Positions 6,454-12,062 of a stretch of 12,062 bases of DNA are shown here, in pieces. The DNA is from Cytophagaceae bacterium (GTDB lineage Bacteria; Bacteroidota; Bacteroidia; Cytophagales; Spirosomataceae). The stretch lies in the NCBI GenBank assembly GCA_027485075.1, contig JAIXRT010000194.1, positions 1 through 12,062 on the forward strand, given 5' to 3'. Below the pieces are notes generated by a model. It made no database searches. It was given only the letters and a program-made list of their open reading frames with translations, and was not told where the DNA came from. Within the stretch, counting starts at the first letter, position 1, and each line of letters opens with the position of its first letter. Both the position numbers and the translations under genes were made by a program.

Positions 6454-6461
6454 TAATTTTG
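6454..6461 (+). promoter_or_regulatory. Bacteroidota -7 promoter element of the glycosyltransferase gene
   Basis: TAATTTTG is an exact TAnnTTTG match ending six bases before the ATG at 6468. The transcript would start at or just before that ATG. The box overlaps the TTG at 6459 that could otherwise be taken as the start codon, which argues for the ATG. No TTG is found at the canonical -33 spacing. This promoter may also feed the ebo genes downstream. Confidence 0.5.
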
Positions 6462-6467
6462 GGTCGC

Positions 6468-7472
6468 ATGGATGTATCAATTGTATTTGTCAACTACCAA
6501 ACAGAAGCACTCTTACAAGATTGCTTGCGTAGCATTTACGAGCATACGGAAAATCTAAAATTTGAATGCATTGTTGTTGACAATCATTTTATTCCAACTG
6601 CCAATCAACAAATTTTAAGTGAATTCCCTCAAACTAAGTGGGTTGACGCAGGACGGAATACAGGTTTTTCCACTGCAAATAACATTGGTTTACGTGAAGC
6701 TTCAGGAGAATTTATCCTTTTTCTAAATGCCGACACCCTTGTATTTGACAACAGTATCGGAAATGCTTGGAAACATTTGATGGCGGACCAAACTCTTGTA
6801 GCTATTGGTGGAATTCAGTTAGATATTAACAAAAATCCATTACCCTATTATCGAACGTTAAATGATGTTCGTAGAGATTTTTACATCGTTCCCAACAAAC
6901 CAGTTTTCCATCAAGTGATCAATGCATTATTACCGAATCAAAAATTTTCTCGTTCAGAGGAAACAAACAATTTGGTGGGAGCTTTTCTCATGGCTTCAAA
7001 GGAAAATCTGCTCAAACTAAACGGATGGGATGAGGATTTTTTCATGTACGCAGAAGACGCTGAACTGAGTTTCCGCTTAAGTAAGTTGGGTAAATTAGCT
7101 TATTTCGAAGACGTACACTTTATTCATTTAATCAAGGAAAATGAATTTCGTCGCACGGAATACTCCTGGGTCAATCGATTTTCAGTCCAAATTCAAGTAT
7201 CTAATTTGCTTTGGATAAGAAAAAGCTACGGGGTAATTGCCTTTCTTCTAATTTATCTTAACTATTCAGTTATTGCTCCTATTTTCTGGATTTGGAAAGT
7301 TGGCCTTAATCTATCAACAGGAAAATCGTGGAACCACGATACAAAAAACCAGCGTATTTTTGGACGTAAACTAGCTGTGCTATATCATTACTTTTTCCCT
7401 ATTCTCTTTCGCTTAAAAGGACCTTACCAAATAAAACCAGAGGAGAATATTGATCAAGTCATCAAATCATAA
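6468..7472 (+). CDS. Family 2 glycosyltransferase (rhamnosyltransferase-like)
   Basis: The 334-residue protein is a GT-A fold glycosyltransferase of the GT2/WbbL type, which transfers a nucleotide-activated sugar onto a cell-surface glycan or lipid carrier. The nucleotide-binding start is MDVSIVFVNYQTE, followed by CIVVDNH (about 34-40), RNTGFSTANNIGL (63-75) and LNADT with the metal-binding Asp89. The acceptor-side motif FFMYAEDAELSFRL contains the catalytic ED. A hydrophobic stretch at about 254-280 suggests membrane association. Sugar and acceptor cannot be determined. The frame is open to a TTG at 6459, but the ATG at 6468 matches the family N-terminus and sits just behind TAATTTTG. The gene precedes eboA by 48 bases in the same direction and has no clear terminator after it, so read-through into the ebo operon is plausible. 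A glycosyltransferase is not part of the standard ebo set. Confidence 0.9.
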   Translation: MDVSIVFVNYQTEALLQDCLRSIYEHTENLKFECIVVDNHFIPTANQQILSEFPQTKWVDAGRNTGFSTANNIGLREASGEFILFLNADTLVFDNSIGNAWKHLMADQTLVAIGGIQLDINKNPLPYYRTLNDVRRDFYIVPNKPVFHQVINALLPNQKFSRSEETNNLVGAFLMASKENLLKLNGWDEDFFMYAEDAELSFRLSKLGKLAYFEDVHFIHLIKENEFRRTEYSWVNRFSVQIQVSNLLWIRKSYGVIAFLLIYLNYSVIAPIFWIWKVGLNLSTGKSWNHDTKNQRIFGRKLAVLYHYFFPILFRLKGPYQIKPEENIDQVIKS

Positions 7473-7520: not shown

Positions 7521-8273
7521 GTGAAAACGAATTTACAAATCACCGAAACCATTGTAGCCTTTGCCAATGAAACCGAATTATCTTGGTTAGCTGAGCAAAA
7601 AACCTTATCAGGTAAAGCATTGGCATTAGCTTTTGTAAAAGTTCCCCGATTTATTTCTAAAAAAATCATTGAAAGTAGTGAGTTTTCAAGTTGGACATTA
7701 GACCAACTCGTTCGCTTGGACATATTGATACAATTAGACGCAGCCAATATCGATTCATTATTCGAAACCGCAGAAATGCAAGAAGCTGTCGCACTGACTC
7801 GCTCATTACCATTTTTACCAAATCCTTCAACCTATTTGTTACGTGCAACTGATGCGGTAAGATCTAACATGGGGCCCGTATTCGATGCGATCGCCTTTGG
7901 AAATACCTATCCAAAAGACTATTTCAGTGAAGCTGCTTGGAACCAATTGGTCTTAAAATGTATTTTCAATGATAAAGCGATACACCAAATCATCGGATTG
8001 GATGAGCGTTCAAACCAAGACTTAGCGAATACGCTTTCCGATTTTGCACATGAACGATGGGCTGCAGACCGAAGAGTGCCTTCACAAGTATGGAGGTTAG
8101 TTCCTCGATTTATGAACGAAACCTTACAGGCTGACATTGAAAAATTAGCTCAGTCAGAAAATTCAAGAGACGTCCTCGCGGCATCTTTAGTAAAACAAGA
8201 AGTCCAAATTCCAGGCAGCACGCAGGGTATTTGGCATGAATTAGAAAACCCCGAACCGATTTACACCGCTTAA
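7521..8273 (+). CDS. eboA: EboA family protein, first gene of the ebo operon
   Basis: The 250-residue soluble protein belongs to the EboA family, whose biochemical function is unknown. The hallmark region is N116-MGPVFDAIAFGNTYP, then FSEAAWNQLVLK (135-146), IIGLDERSNQDLA and DFAHERWAADR (174-184). It finishes with QVWRLVPRF. These blocks are typical of EboA from cyanobacteria and Bacteroidota. The N-terminal 110 residues are helical and more variable. The start is GTG: an in-frame stop nine bases upstream leaves no alternative. The product is expected to act with the four downstream proteins in making or moving a small molecule; in Nostoc the ebo genes are needed for the scytonemin precursor to reach the periplasm. 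The cargo in this organism is unknown, as no scytonemin core gene is present in the window. The eboB start follows its stop by three bases. Confidence 0.92.
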   Translation: MKTNLQITETIVAFANETELSWLAEQKTLSGKALALAFVKVPRFISKKIIESSEFSSWTLDQLVRLDILIQLDAANIDSLFETAEMQEAVALTRSLPFLPNPSTYLLRATDAVRSNMGPVFDAIAFGNTYPKDYFSEAAWNQLVLKCIFNDKAIHQIIGLDERSNQDLANTLSDFAHERWAADRRVPSQVWRLVPRFMNETLQADIEKLAQSENSRDVLAASLVKQEVQIPGSTQGIWHELENPEPIYTA

Positions 8274-8276
8274 TAT

Positions 8277-9293
8277 ATGTGCCAAGAACATAAACCCATT
8301 GGAAATCCTTCTCATTTCGAAGGAACTGAACAAGAGAAAACAACGGCTCATGCAGTGGATGGGACATTTGCTCAATATACCCAAGGCATGAAATTCTTTG
8401 ATCCGCATGTGCACATGACATCACGGACTACGGATGATTACCAGGCTTTGGCAGATGCTGGGGTGGTTGCCTTGATTGAACCTGCATTTTGGTTGGGCCA
8501 ACCGCGAACCGGATTAGCCTCGTTTAAAGACTATTTCGCCAGCTTAGTGGGTTGGGAACGTTTTCGATCATCCCAATTTGGGATTAAACATTATTGTACG
8601 ATTGGATTGAATTCTCGTGAGGCAAATCATGAAGCTTTAGCCGAACAGGTAATGGAAATTTTGCCTTTGTTCTTACAAAAAGAAGGCGTGGTGGGCGTGG
8701 GGGAAATCGGCTTCGATGACCAAACAGCTGCTGAAGAAAAATATTACCGAGCACAATTAGAACTTGCGAAGGAAATGAATTTGCCCGTTCAGGTTCACAC
8801 ACCACACCGCGATAAGAAGAAAGGAACGGAACGTAGCATGGCCATTGCTTTAGAGCATGGTATCGCACCGAACATGGTCATCATCGACCATAACAATGAA
8901 GAAACCGTGAAATCGGTTTTAGATCAAGGATTTTACGCTGCATTTACGATTTATCCATTTACCAAAATGGGCAATGAGCGCATGGTGGAAATTGTAAAAC
9001 AATACGGACCAGAACGCATTATGGTAAACTCGGCTGCCGACTGGGGAATTTCAGATCCTTTGGCGATACCTAAGACTGCGGCTTTGATGAAGATTAAAGA
9101 AGTACCGGACGAACATATTCGATTGGTAACTTATCAAAATGCTTTGGATGCATTTGCTCAAAGTGGACAGATTCAAGAAGCTGATTTCATCCATGGATTG
9201 GAAATAGATCAAACACAAAAATTCAATGGTAATACCGTTTTACGCGGAGGACAAGCACCACGCATCGACAAGGACTCCTTAATCATTCGCTAA
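8277..9293 (+). CDS. eboB: TatD-like metal-dependent hydrolase EboB
   Basis: The product is a 338-residue amidohydrolase-fold TIM barrel related to TatD nucleases. Probable metal ligands are H44 and H46 (DPHVHM), E143 (GVGEIGFDD), H174 (VQVHTPH), H205 (IIDHNN) and D255 (NSAADWG), so the site looks complete. The stretch EPAFWLGQPRTG, then SLVGWERFR and FGIKHYCTIGLNS, is characteristic of the ebo-associated subgroup rather than housekeeping TatD, and the substrate is unlikely to be assumed from TatD DNases. The first 37 residues (with C2, H5, H13 and H25) precede the point where these proteins usually begin; Met38 at 8388 (MKFFDPHVH) is a credible alternative start. The upstream start is kept because it leaves only three bases after eboA. 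The stop overlaps the eboC ATG by one base, indicating translational coupling. Confidence 0.92.
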   Translation: MCQEHKPIGNPSHFEGTEQEKTTAHAVDGTFAQYTQGMKFFDPHVHMTSRTTDDYQALADAGVVALIEPAFWLGQPRTGLASFKDYFASLVGWERFRSSQFGIKHYCTIGLNSREANHEALAEQVMEILPLFLQKEGVVGVGEIGFDDQTAAEEKYYRAQLELAKEMNLPVQVHTPHRDKKKGTERSMAIALEHGIAPNMVIIDHNNEETVKSVLDQGFYAAFTIYPFTKMGNERMVEIVKQYGPERIMVNSAADWGISDPLAIPKTAALMKIKEVPDEHIRLVTYQNALDAFAQSGQIQEADFIHGLEIDQTQKFNGNTVLRGGQAPRIDKDSLIIR

Positions 9294-10180
9294 TGCGCAG
9301 TAAAATTAGAGCCTTTCTTGAACTCATGCGTCCAGCTAATGTCATCACGGCATTAACGGATGTATTGGCAGGTATGGCCATTGTAGGATTTACCTTTGGA
9401 ACCTTAGAATACCAATTTTGGCCAGTCGTTTTTTTAGGCATTTCAACCATGTGTTTATATGCAGGTGGAGTTGTATTTAATGATGTTTTTGACCACGAAC
9501 TGGATATCCTAGAACGTCCAGAGCGCGCCTTGCCAAGCGGTAGAATCCAACGAGCAGAAGCGGTATTTGGTGGAATTGTTTTATTATCATTGGGTATATT
9601 CTTGGCTTTTTGGCAGAGTAGACTAAGCGGAATCGTGGCAGTGCTCGTGACCATTCATGCATTATTTTATGATTTCAAGGGCAAACATATGCGTATTTTT
9701 GGCCCTATTAATATGGGATTATGTCGGGCATTCAACTTGATGTTAGGCATGAGCGTTTATGAACTAGGCGTATTGGAACATTTTTATTTGATAGTAATTC
9801 CATTGATATACATCGCTGCCATTACATTAGTCAGTCGCGGTGAGGTCCACGGAAGCCAGTCGGCGCCGTTATGGTTCGCGGCCATTTTATTCATTTTCGT
9901 CCACGCAAGCCAAATAGCCGTTGGCTATCAAGCTGGCAAATTGGTTTACATGTTACCATTCGTTTTGGTACATGCCTATTTAATCTTTGCCAAATTATTC
10001 CCGGCCATTAAAAAACCAATCGGTCCAAATATAGGCCAAACGGTAAAGACTGGAGTTTTGACACTAATTTTAATGAATGCCGCTTGGGTGAGTTTAAGTG
10101 AACAATATTACATGGCTTTTGTTACCTTAGCGTTGTTGCCATTATCCATGTGGGTGGGCAAAAAATTCGCCGTTTCATAA
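9293..10180 (+). CDS. eboC: UbiA-like prenyltransferase EboC
   Basis: This 295-residue integral membrane protein of the UbiA superfamily has about eight or nine hydrophobic segments. After the N-terminal LMRPANVITALTDVLAG comes the first aspartate-rich motif, N63-D64-x2-D67-x3-D71 (NDVFDHELD), which binds the Mg-diphosphate of a prenyl donor. ERPERALPSGRI (74-85) is typical of the superfamily. The second conserved loop is altered: near residue 180, where UbiA enzymes carry an Asp-rich motif, it reads TLVSRGEVHG. YDFKGKHMRIFGP and MGLCRAFNLMLGM match the EboC subgroup. Known UbiA enzymes prenylate aromatic or sugar acceptors; the substrate of EboC has not been shown. It is the only clear multi-pass membrane protein of the operon and probably the membrane step. 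The ATG overlaps the eboB stop (TAATG); eboD starts nine bases after its end. Confidence 0.93.
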   Translation: MRSKIRAFLELMRPANVITALTDVLAGMAIVGFTFGTLEYQFWPVVFLGISTMCLYAGGVVFNDVFDHELDILERPERALPSGRIQRAEAVFGGIVLLSLGIFLAFWQSRLSGIVAVLVTIHALFYDFKGKHMRIFGPINMGLCRAFNLMLGMSVYELGVLEHFYLIVIPLIYIAAITLVSRGEVHGSQSAPLWFAAILFIFVHASQIAVGYQAGKLVYMLPFVLVHAYLIFAKLFPAIKKPIGPNIGQTVKTGVLTLILMNAAWVSLSEQYYMAFVTLALLPLSMWVGKKFAVS

Positions 10181-10189
10181 TTTATATTC

Positions 10190-11335
10190 ATGCACGTATT
10201 ACAACAGCAATTTCAGGTTCCTTTTAATTACCAAGTGATTTTCACGAAGCACTTGTTTGAAAGCAGTAATAAAACCTTGTGTGAATTTATCTCAAATTTC
10301 GGCCAAAGTAATTTTCGCAAACGCATCTTATTTGTCATCGATAAAGGGGTAGCAGATGCGCATCCAACATTAACAAAATCAATTGTTACCTATTTTGAAG
10401 CTAATAATGTAGCCGATTTAGCCCCTGAATTGCTCGTCTTACCGGGAGGAGAAGGGTGTAAAAACGATCCAAGATTTTATGAAGAAGTGGTACGTGCGAT
10501 TGACGAACATCGCATCGATCGGCACTCTTTTGTAGCGGCCATAGGTGGTGGGGCCTTTTTGGATATGTCGGGTTATGCAGCAGCCATCTCCCATCGAGGC
10601 GTTAAATTGATTCGTATACCTACTACCGTTCTATCTCAAAATGATTCAGGGGTAGGCGTTAAAAATGGGGTCAATTACTTAGGAAAGAAGAATTTCTTGG
10701 GAACCTTCGCTCCTGCTGTAGCCGTATTTAATGATGTTGCATTTTTAGCGACGTTGGAAGATCGTGATTGGCGCTCTGGAATAGCGGAAGCGATTAAGGT
10801 TGCGTTGATTAAAGATATAGCTTTTTTCGAATGGCTTGAGACTAATGTCTCAGCTATGAATGCCCGCGATGAAGATGCCATGGTGGAACAGATTTATCGC
10901 TGTGCCGACTTGCACATGAAGCATATTTCGGGCGGAGATCCATTTGAGTTGGGGTCTGCTCGTCCATTGGATTTTGGGCACTGGGCAGCACATAAATTAG
11001 AATACTTAACGGATTTCAAGATTCGTCATGGTGAAGCGGTAGCGATTGGTATTGCTTTAGATTGCGTGTATTCGCACTTGATTGGAGCAATTAGTTTATC
11101 CGATTGCGAACGAATTTTGGCTGTGATTAAAGGCCTAGGATTTGATGCATACCATCCGGCATTGGCAGAAAACGAATGCCAAAACCTCCACAAAGGCTTA
11201 CAAGAATTCCAAGAACATTTGGGTGGTCACTTGACCATCACTTTATTGAAAGCGCTAGGAAAAGGAGAAGAAGTGCACGAAATGGACTTCAAGACTATCC
11301 AAGCATCCGTTGCTTTACTTGCCACCTACGCCTAA
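10190..11335 (+). CDS. eboD: 3-dehydroquinate synthase-like sugar phosphate cyclase EboD
   Basis: The 381-residue protein belongs to the sugar phosphate cyclase superfamily (NAD-dependent, metal-dependent cyclisation of a sugar phosphate). The NAD-binding segment is AIGGGAFLDMSGYAAA (117-132), then RIPTTVLSQNDSGVGVKN (142-159) and GKKNFLGTF. Probable metal ligands are E200 (SGIAEAIK, with K203), H264 (LDFGHWAAH) and H280 (RHGEA). The architecture resembles AroB, but several active-site motifs depart from it: GHW-AAHKLE instead of the usual GHT-x-GHAIE, and GVGVKNGVN instead of SVGGKTAVN. With the operon context this makes EboD, not the shikimate-pathway enzyme, the right call. The product is unknown; a cyclitol or dehydroquinate-like ring is plausible. 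The ATG at 10190 lies nine bases after eboC, and eboE starts one base after the stop. Confidence 0.93.
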   Translation: MHVLQQQFQVPFNYQVIFTKHLFESSNKTLCEFISNFGQSNFRKRILFVIDKGVADAHPTLTKSIVTYFEANNVADLAPELLVLPGGEGCKNDPRFYEEVVRAIDEHRIDRHSFVAAIGGGAFLDMSGYAAAISHRGVKLIRIPTTVLSQNDSGVGVKNGVNYLGKKNFLGTFAPAVAVFNDVAFLATLEDRDWRSGIAEAIKVALIKDIAFFEWLETNVSAMNARDEDAMVEQIYRCADLHMKHISGGDPFELGSARPLDFGHWAAHKLEYLTDFKIRHGEAVAIGIALDCVYSHLIGAISLSDCERILAVIKGLGFDAYHPALAENECQNLHKGLQEFQEHLGGHLTITLLKALGKGEEVHEMDFKTIQASVALLATYA

Positions 11336-11336
11336 G

Positions 11337-12062
11337 ATGAAAACAGCCCACGGACACCTCAGTTATTGCAGCAATATCCATCCGGGAGAGATTTGGGATG
11401 AACATTTTGCCAATTTGCAAGCGACCGTTCCGAAGGTAAAAACAGAAGTTTGCCCAGACCAGGCGATGGGATTGGGATTACGCATTGCCAACCAGGCGAG
11501 TATTGATTTAATCGAAGATCCCGATAAACTAGCAGCCCTAAAAACTTGGCTAGCTCAGGAAGACATCTATATTTTTACACTCAATGGATTTCCTTACGGG
11601 GGATTTCATAATACGATAGTCAAAGATCAGGTGCATGCGCCCGACTGGACAACACAGGATCGCGTGAATTATACGCGGCGGTTAATCGATTTATTGGTTC
11701 AATTATTGCCCTCGGATCAGCATGAAGGTGGAATTTCCACATCTCCCCTATCCTATAAGTTCTGGTGGGATCAACGTGGAGCGGCAATCGGTCAAGCTAC
11801 TATGGAATTGTTAAAACTCGTTCCTTATTTGGCCCAAACAGAGCAAAAAACAGGTAAATGGATTCATATTGATATCGAACCAGAACCGGATGGATTACTA
11901 GAAAATCACCGCGAATTCGTTGATTGGTACACAGATACCTTGATTCCATTTGCTATCACAGCAGGGATTCCGGAGGATTGGGTGCGCCGACATATTCACA
12001 TCTGTTTCGATGTATGTCATTATGGAGTTTCATATGACAAACCGGCTGACTGTTTGCAAGAA
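11337..12062 (+). CDS. eboE: EboE, xylose isomerase-like TIM barrel protein (partial, 3' end outside window)
   Basis: The first 242 codons are present and the frame is open to the window edge. The full protein is expected to be around 400 residues. It belongs to the EboE family (metabolite traffic protein), a xylose isomerase/sugar phosphate epimerase-like TIM barrel. Recognisable segments are GHLSYCSNIHPGE (6-18), MGLGLRIAN (44-52), YIFTLNGFPYGGFH (78-91), RVNYTRRL, GGISTSPLSYK (131-141), HIDIEPEPDGLLE (177-189) and HIHICFDVCHYGV (219-231). Candidate metal ligands are E183, D225 and H228. The ATG lies one base after the eboD stop, so translation is almost certainly coupled. The substrate is unknown. 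The usual last gene, eboF (alkaline phosphatase/nucleotide pyrophosphatase superfamily), would be expected just beyond the window. Confidence 0.92.
   Translation, partial: MKTAHGHLSYCSNIHPGEIWDEHFANLQATVPKVKTEVCPDQAMGLGLRIANQASIDLIEDPDKLAALKTWLAQEDIYIFTLNGFPYGGFHNTIVKDQVHAPDWTTQDRVNYTRRLIDLLVQLLPSDQHEGGISTSPLSYKFWWDQRGAAIGQATMELLKLVPYLAQTEQKTGKWIHIDIEPEPDGLLENHREFVDWYTDTLIPFAITAGIPEDWVRRHIHICFDVCHYGVSYDKPADCLQE

Follow-up and report, generated by a model that had tools for sequence, protein, structure and literature searches.

The stretch of DNA analyzed here (the window, 12,062 nucleotides) spans the whole of contig C75 in the draft genome of an Aquirufa species, a freshwater bacterium; this draft comprises 2,309,648 bases in 286 contigs and is 87% complete. 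The right-hand part of the window carries genes of the ebo cluster, and the last of them, eboE, is cut by the contig end. A preliminary description made from the letters of the window had read positions 7521 to 12062 as eboA-B-C-D-E with a truncated eboE; the open frames and the curated family models agree with it, and the spacings that it gave from eboA to eboE (3, -1, 9, and 1 bases) are borne out. The C-terminal part of EboE was located by family-model search on contig C48 (locus L004), and the last 119 bases of the window are exactly the first 119 bases of the reverse complement of C48. The genes are as follows.

7521..8273, plus strand: eboA, open frame of 250 residues with a GTG start
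8277..9293, plus strand: eboB, 338 residues, TatD-like metal-dependent hydrolase superfamily
9293..10180, plus strand: eboC, 295 residues, UbiA-superfamily membrane prenyltransferase
10190..11335, plus strand: eboD, 381 residues, sugar phosphate cyclase
11337..12062, plus strand: first 242 codons of eboE, ATG at 11337, xylose-isomerase-like TIM barrel, truncated where the contig stops
L004 7445-8014 (contig C48), minus strand: remainder of eboE, matching the EboE family model
L004 6096-7460 (contig C48), minus strand: eboF, Pfam PF01663

The sum of the two overlapping frames gives a full EboE of 392 residues, the same length as in the close relatives L067 and L068. A look downstream for eboF had been proposed as a check, and C48 indeed carries the remainder of eboE and then, directly and without interruption, eboF, which overlaps eboE by 16 bases and scores 201.6 bits with PF01663. 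Because eboE continues on C48 and eboF comes next, the operon reads ABCDEF on one strand. It is thus a complete, canonical six-gene ebo operon, and finding this gene set in this order is far beyond chance. The same cluster occurs in Aquirufa antheringensis (L071), and some homologues of EboA and EboE bear Aquirufa names.

The NCBIfam and Pfam profiles return the families that had been proposed, namely the EboA domain, TatD, EboC, PRK06203, and EboE. EboA scores 157.3 bits with the domain model NF035938 (cut-off 50) and stays below the whole-protein model NF035937 (165.6 bits, cut-off 320). Its AlphaFold model is all-helical (predicted local distance difference test, pLDDT, 91.6), with weak HEAT/armadillo-like matches among those listed in the fold comparison, and its sequence finds a single chance-like match in the PDB (E 0.16). 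EboB matches PF01026 (67.2 bits, cut-off 27) and falls below the model of the TatD nuclease subfamily, TIGR00010 (47.1 bits against 206). EboC passes both NF035940 (348.8 bits, cut-off 250) and PF01040 (52 bits, cut-off 34.2) and carries the Asp-rich NDxxDxxxD motif of the UbiA prenyltransferase superfamily. EboE, even as the truncated protein, reaches 297.1 bits with NF035939 (cut-off 250); it shows a xylose-isomerase-like TIM-barrel fold with its metal-site residues, and its sequence has no match in the PDB at E 0.1.

EboD belongs by sequence to the sugar phosphate cyclase superfamily. It scores 560.6 bits with PRK06203/NF004852 (cut-off 333) and 213.8 bits with the AroB model TIGR01357, under the cut-off of 305, which is passed by a separate AroB of the same genome on contig C136 (345.1 bits). 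We aligned 72 EboD rows, many of them close kin and a few of them repeats of one gene, with five comparator rows that represent four distinct proteins, namely AroB and AroB-like proteins and a sedoheptulose 7-phosphate (S7P) cyclase. We take the aligned residues to have the binding roles for metal, carboxylate, and phosphate known from such cyclases. E200, H264, and H280, taken as the three metal ligands, are invariant in all 72 EboD rows. The Asn found in AroB three places before the first metal His is Asp (D261) in every EboD row, as it is in the S7P cyclase, and the second His (H268), replaced by Pro in the S7P cyclase, is kept throughout. Every comparator has Thr where all 72 EboD rows have W265, and the nine EboD rows printed lack the DKK motif that AroB carries near its C-terminus. 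With H268 kept and a Trp that the comparators do not have, EboD matches neither the 3-dehydroquinate synthase (DHQS) class nor the S7P cyclase class. As judged from its sequence, it forms a separate type of sugar phosphate cyclase and differs from the AroB of the genome, and the plain reading of these residues suggests a substrate without the carboxylate of 3-deoxy-D-arabino-heptulosonate 7-phosphate (DAHP).

The main new observation lies outside the window: in other ebo clusters, EboD is replaced by inositol-3-phosphate synthase (MIPS), which converts glucose 6-phosphate into inositol phosphate, together with an extra xylose-isomerase-like gene, here called XI2. When plasmid records were searched for EboB from a Streptomyces query, 59 were hit, 51 of which have a true EboB by score; the other 8 do not exceed 75 bits and were counted as different TatD proteins. 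Cyclases near EboB were counted from coordinates read by eye, among the best 60 of 79 MIPS records and the best 60 of 115 records of the EboD search, in which exactly 16 exceed 300 bits and the next are at 158 or less. Among these matches, MIPS lies within about 5 kb of EboB in 32 of the 51 records (MIPS-type), EboD within about 6 kb in 16 (EboD-type), and the two together in none. Neither was found in the remaining 3, whose stretches were fetched and checked. A tblastn check covered 9 of the 16 EboD-type and 10 of the 32 MIPS-type stretches, and the nine EboD-type stretches are without MIPS. Inspection of all 37 plasmid records with XI2 places this gene in 32/32 MIPS-type, 0/16 EboD-type, and 1/3 other EboB records. 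The MIPS proteins of the Streptomyces plasmid locus L121 and of L126 have both MIPS Pfam domains above cut-off, and the XI2 of L121 matches PF01261.

Since many of the Streptomyces plasmid records are much alike, the genera give a fairer count than the records. The MIPS type occurs in Streptomyces, Embleya, Nonomuraea, Gemmatirosa, Halocatena, Halobaculum, and Natronococcus, and the EboD type in Salipiger, Azospirillum, Mycetohabitans, Deinococcus, Ketogulonicigenium, Roseivivax, Gloeothece (EboB and EboD only in the stretch), and Aureibacter. In two Deinococcus clusters, a small hypothetical protein lies between eboD and eboB (L127:6593-6931 and L144:7669-7995) and no EboA was seen; the small protein is possibly the EboG of Yurchenko et al. 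Ten MIPS-type loci were compared with the proteins of the window's genome: EboB (40-52% identical), EboF (34-51% identical), and a UbiA prenyltransferase are present in 10/10, EboE in 7/10, and EboA in 6/10. The EboE of the seven non-archaeal loci is 31-37% identical to that of Aquirufa, and in the three haloarchaeal loci EboA is not detectable and short barrel proteins replace the full EboE. In the annotated Streptomyces loci of this type, NCBI files the prenyltransferase in a family of its own, SCO3242. For Streptomyces coelicolor, SCO3242 is tabulated as a putative transferase and SCO3243 as a myo-inositol phosphate synthase, with no mention of ebo in the passages covered (PMC3610822), which fits the same pairing of prenyltransferase and MIPS on a chromosome.

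The exchange also appears within the Bacteroidota. One of 21 phylum loci (L167, genome G383) has ebo ABCEF with no eboD between eboC and eboE, and no EboD above cut-off was found genome-wide, the only related protein being AroB-like at 165 bits. This genome has a MIPS gene and, starting 16 bases after it, an XI2 homologue that is 43.6% identical to the Streptomyces XI2 over 275 residues. No MIPS was found in four EboD-bearing Bacteroidota genomes (G000, which is incomplete, G127, G004, and G018). The planctomycete G204, considered as a further MIPS user, was rejected, as it has EboE and EboD and no MIPS. In the tree of EboB (38 rows) the MIPS label needs 3 changes, 2 of them forced by well-supported branches, and in that of EboF (34 rows) it needs 2, both forced; 3 and 7, respectively, of the 41 picked loci are left out of these trees because the gene lies outside the stretch or has no frame of the set length. 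Gemmatirosa, which is MIPS-type, groups with EboD-types in both trees. With at least two label changes on each tree, the cyclase type appears to have changed more than once.

The later enzymes are conserved across this exchange. H44, H46, E143, H174, D204, H205, and D255 of EboB are at least 95% conserved in 75 rows of EboD-type and other loci and 100% conserved in 7 MIPS-type rows, and Y56, N63, D64, D67, D71, R75, and R145 of EboC are conserved in 69 and 8 such rows, respectively. The putative metal- and catalytic-site residues of EboB, EboE, and EboF are identical in the two types (7, 6, and 7 MIPS-type rows), so that the later chemistry appears to be shared. On a bolder reading, to which we give less than even odds, the ebo pathway would be built of modules and characterized by its later enzymes, with either EboD or MIPS plus XI2 feeding EboE, EboF, EboB, and EboC.

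MIPS and XI2 were also seen together without EboB in four plasmid records among the matches listed (Hymenobacter, Roseomonas, and two Methylobacterium). Four EboB-less MIPS records were examined (Runella, Halomarina, Bacteroides, and Hymenobacter), and an XI2 relative is present in Hymenobacter only. The Hymenobacter plasmid (L184:5536-12162) carries MIPS and the XI2 relative with HD-domain, Gfo/Idh/MocA, and YcaO-like genes and no annotated ebo gene. In two Streptomyces plasmids, a ScyD/ScyE-family gene lies directly upstream of the MIPS-type cluster (L121:6880-8079 and L130:5096-6298), and a multicopper oxidase gene lies some genes downstream.

The distribution of ebo was followed in the genus, the family, and the phylum. 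The 38 genus genomes span 1.5-3.2 Mb, and those of the family sample reach 10.3 Mb. EboC is above cut-off in 34 of the 38 genus genomes, the four misses being 71-83% complete, and in all 16 with a completeness of 90% or more and a contamination of 5% or less; it is above cut-off in 181 of 200 family genomes, and EboE is so in 24 of 296 phylum genomes. Patchy in the phylum, nearly fixed in the family, and retained in a genus of small genomes, ebo probably has a resident function. Of 20 genus loci, 19 have the order ABCDEF and one ends at eboE. Of 20 family loci, each from a different genus, 18 have this order; the remaining two have ABC alone within the 20-kb stretch, and their genomes (G004 and G018) have EboD elsewhere. 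The 21 further Bacteroidota loci comprise 13 with ABCDEF, 6 with divergent ABC and DEF, 1 with DEF only, and the ABCEF locus described above. The divergent loci and the separate EboD of G004 and G018 make ABC and DEF look like two half-units.

The preliminary description had also expected a cargo or product that is something other than scytonemin or lies elsewhere, and such a cargo did not emerge: no accessory gene is consistently tied to ebo in the compared genus or family loci. With genes called by a longest-frame script, no non-ebo gene stands beside ebo in more than 5 of the 20 family loci, and the five loci in question share five non-ebo genes, which points to longer common synteny. A small protein of about 127 residues directly follows eboF in all 19 eboF-containing genus loci. 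A family 2 glycosyltransferase gene lies upstream of eboA (window 6459-7472); we rejected it as an ebo gene, as it stands beside eboA in 13/20 genus loci and 0/20 family loci. A gene for a TonB-dependent-receptor-like protein of 751 residues (L004:3830-6085, minus strand) starts about 10 bases behind eboF, its CarboxypepD_reg domains scoring above cut-off and Plug slightly below. It was rejected as an ebo component, as none of the 19 eboF-containing genus loci has one. Farther upstream, the minus strand of the window encodes a 176-residue protein without a Pfam or NCBIfam match (1502-2032). No scyA-C core gene is among the annotated frames of the window, the search being confined to these frames and not made genome-wide.

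A pair of genes, one encoding 587-675 residues and the other a PF12902 ferritin-like protein, adjoins ebo genes in three phyla, and occurs also in the Bacteroidota locus L159.

L143:4073-7133: PF12902 gene pair
L125:1017-4099: PF12902 gene pair
L139:11981-15262: PF12902 gene pair

The pairs are 34-36% and 40% identical between the loci, and the VioB model gives 17.9-28.9 bits (cut-off 1250) in 4 of the 6 proteins scanned. The pair may be a split VioB-like enzyme of a possible tryptophan-dimer cargo pathway. As a general cargo of ebo it was rejected, because the comparison showed it in just 1 of 61 ebo loci of Bacteroidota and in 3 of 22 loci on plasmids, and no PF12902 gene, the candidate tryptophan-dimer enzyme, was found in this 87%-complete genome.

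Our leading hypothesis is that the Aquirufa ebo operon encodes, by itself, a complete pathway to a prenylated cyclitol retained in or at the inner membrane, and we put the probability that the product belongs to this class at roughly 0.6. Both the active site of EboD and the replacement of EboD by MIPS support a cyclitol intermediate. In the order of steps that we infer, EboD, or elsewhere MIPS with XI2, would make the ring, EboD by cyclizing a carboxylate-free sugar phosphate to a keto-cyclitol, which EboE, a putative metal-dependent barrel, would isomerize, epimerize, or dehydrate. EboF would remove or cleave a phosphate, EboB would modify the ring in a metal-dependent hydrolytic step, and EboC would attach a prenyl chain at the membrane (farnesyl in the published assay), with EboA, a putative alpha solenoid, perhaps holding or assembling the Ebo enzymes. 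The lipid might then act as a membrane carrier or cofactor, which in Nostoc would help the scytonemin monomer to cross. Nostoc punctiforme mutants that lack the whole ebo cluster or one of eboA, B, C, E, and F keep this monomer trapped in the cytoplasm, and the report, in the parts covered here, describes no gene-specific intermediate and proposes a lipid carrier (PMC6282210). In Aquirufa the role of the lipid is probably a resident one, because EboC is present in each of the 16 high-quality genomes despite the small genome size of the genus.

It is conceivable, though we hold it at somewhat less than even odds, that EboD and MIPS with XI2 deliver one and the same six-carbon intermediate and that the product is a prenylated lipid of inositol or inosose type; if so, EboD would be a hexose-6-phosphate cyclase. 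There is a comparable, less than even chance that the MIPS-type clusters end instead in a different product, with the later enzymes in common, and that EboD uses the seven-carbon S7P, as proposed in 2016. In EboD the Asn of DHQS is replaced by the Asp seen in the S7P cyclase, Yurchenko et al. placed EboD near the S7P cyclases (PMC5133447), and the annotated Streptomyces loci carry a prenyltransferase of the separate family SCO3242; nevertheless, the DHQS-like His and the Trp absent from the comparators set EboD apart from both classes. It seems highly improbable that EboD merely provides the shikimate pathway with another 3-dehydroquinate synthase: the PRK06203 model that it passes is named 3-dehydroquinate synthase by NCBI, but the genome has its own AroB above cut-off, EboD fails that cut-off, the Asn of AroB is Asp in all EboD rows, and the DKK motif is absent from those printed.

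Another explanation, which we consider unlikely, is that EboC prenylates a tryptophan-derived aromatic compound, a quinoline or an indole, the operon making or maturing this prenylated aromatic and EboD supplying or modifying a ring precursor. Three EboC homologues, known as Ubi-297, farnesylate 8-hydroxyquinoline-2-carboxylic acid (8-HQA) in vitro, and that of Maribacter also farnesylates other quinolines such as quinaldic acid (PMC9235831). The outcomes of the scytonemin and EDB systems, described below, are indolic as well. The split-VioB-like pair stands beside EboB-bearing loci in Aureibacter, Mycetohabitans, and Gloeothece, as well as in L159. However, MIPS would give no aromatic precursor when it replaces EboD, and the pair is as rare in Bacteroidota as its counts above indicate, with no PF12902 gene found in this genome. 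It is quite unlikely, too, that the Ebo proteins form a complex for small-molecule translocation rather than a biosynthetic pathway. The cytoplasmic scytonemin monomer in all N. punctiforme ebo mutants made, with no gene-specific intermediate described, is consistent with such a complex, as is the modeling of EboA as a scaffold-type helical solenoid; on the other hand, EboB, EboD, EboE, and EboF retain the polar residues expected of enzymes, and the swap of one cyclase for an unrelated one is readily understood if a reaction is to be preserved, but not if a subunit is.

Several points weigh against the prenylated-cyclitol pathway and its exchangeable cyclase. The evidence for the MIPS type comes from plasmid records, in which similar Streptomyces plasmids are numerous, and with the best 60 of 79 MIPS matches counted, a low-scoring MIPS of an EboD-type record might have gone unnoticed. 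The pair of MIPS and XI2 also occurs without EboB, so that it is not specific to ebo and is a module of its own that serves other ends too. The three EboB records of Haladaptatus and two Streptomyces plasmids (L132, L133, and L134) have no cyclase within 8 kb on either side; the stretches of the two Streptomyces plasmids contain EboB, EboE, and EboF only, and that of Haladaptatus contains EboB, EboC, and EboF with two barrel genes. In the parts of the literature covered here, no cyclitol lipid is reported from an ebo cluster, and the farnesylation of 8-HQA by EboC homologues fits an aromatic acceptor (PMC9235831). Both ebo systems studied experimentally, those of scytonemin and of the EDB cluster, yield indoles (PMC6282210, PMC9655573). 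The EDB cluster of P. fluorescens is said to contain the full ebo set (PMC6282210), and its expression in E. coli gave indole compounds, and two simple indoles moderately repelled nematodes, according to a review (PMC9655573).

The ebo clusters were named, and a prenylated-cyclitol product was proposed for them, in 2016 (section 3.7 of PMC5133447); that paper reported them in seven bacterial phyla and in the plastid genomes of two eustigmatophytes. With the window, a known class gains a further member, and the prenylated cyclitol of the preliminary description, although supported by the EboD active site and the MIPS replacement, repeats that proposal and is not new. The replacement itself is what the present analysis adds, and no title or abstract tying ebo to an inositol synthase was found in the open-licence literature. 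The product of the Ebo enzymes is not assigned in the parts of the literature covered, and because the reaction of the enzyme that takes the place of EboD is known, the question becomes testable through a concrete product prediction. If both cyclases feed the same intermediate, the lipid would represent an undescribed class of membrane cofactor in bacteria and archaea.

Compared with the known systems, the Aquirufa operon is closest to the ABCDEF cluster of Yurchenko et al. (PMC5133447), who list Bacteroidetes among the phyla in which this order is ancestral. All six genes, their order, strand, and families are alike, and nothing essential differs from the description in the parts of that paper covered here; a difference is the TonB-dependent-receptor-like gene behind eboF in the window's genome. 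With Nostoc punctiforme it shares homologues of EboA, B, C, E, and F, there required for scytonemin, whereas eboD lies nearby in the opposite direction in Nostoc and inside the operon in Aquirufa (PMC6282210). The Ubi-297 enzymes of Maribacter, Zobellia, and Algoriphagus are EboC homologues of ebo clusters; the Aquirufa protein shares their Asp-rich motif and has a Tyr56 and an Arg145 at the numbers described for Ubi-297 (PMC9235831). The MIPS-type clusters of Streptomyces, Embleya, Nonomuraea, Gemmatirosa, and the haloarchaea have EboB, EboF, and a UbiA prenyltransferase in common with it in the ten loci compared, but carry MIPS and XI2 where Aquirufa has EboD, and a prenyltransferase of the SCO3242 family in the annotated Streptomyces loci. 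Finally, EboD shares its superfamily with the other sugar phosphate cyclases, as far as the sequences indicate, but differs from them in its mixed active-site residues.

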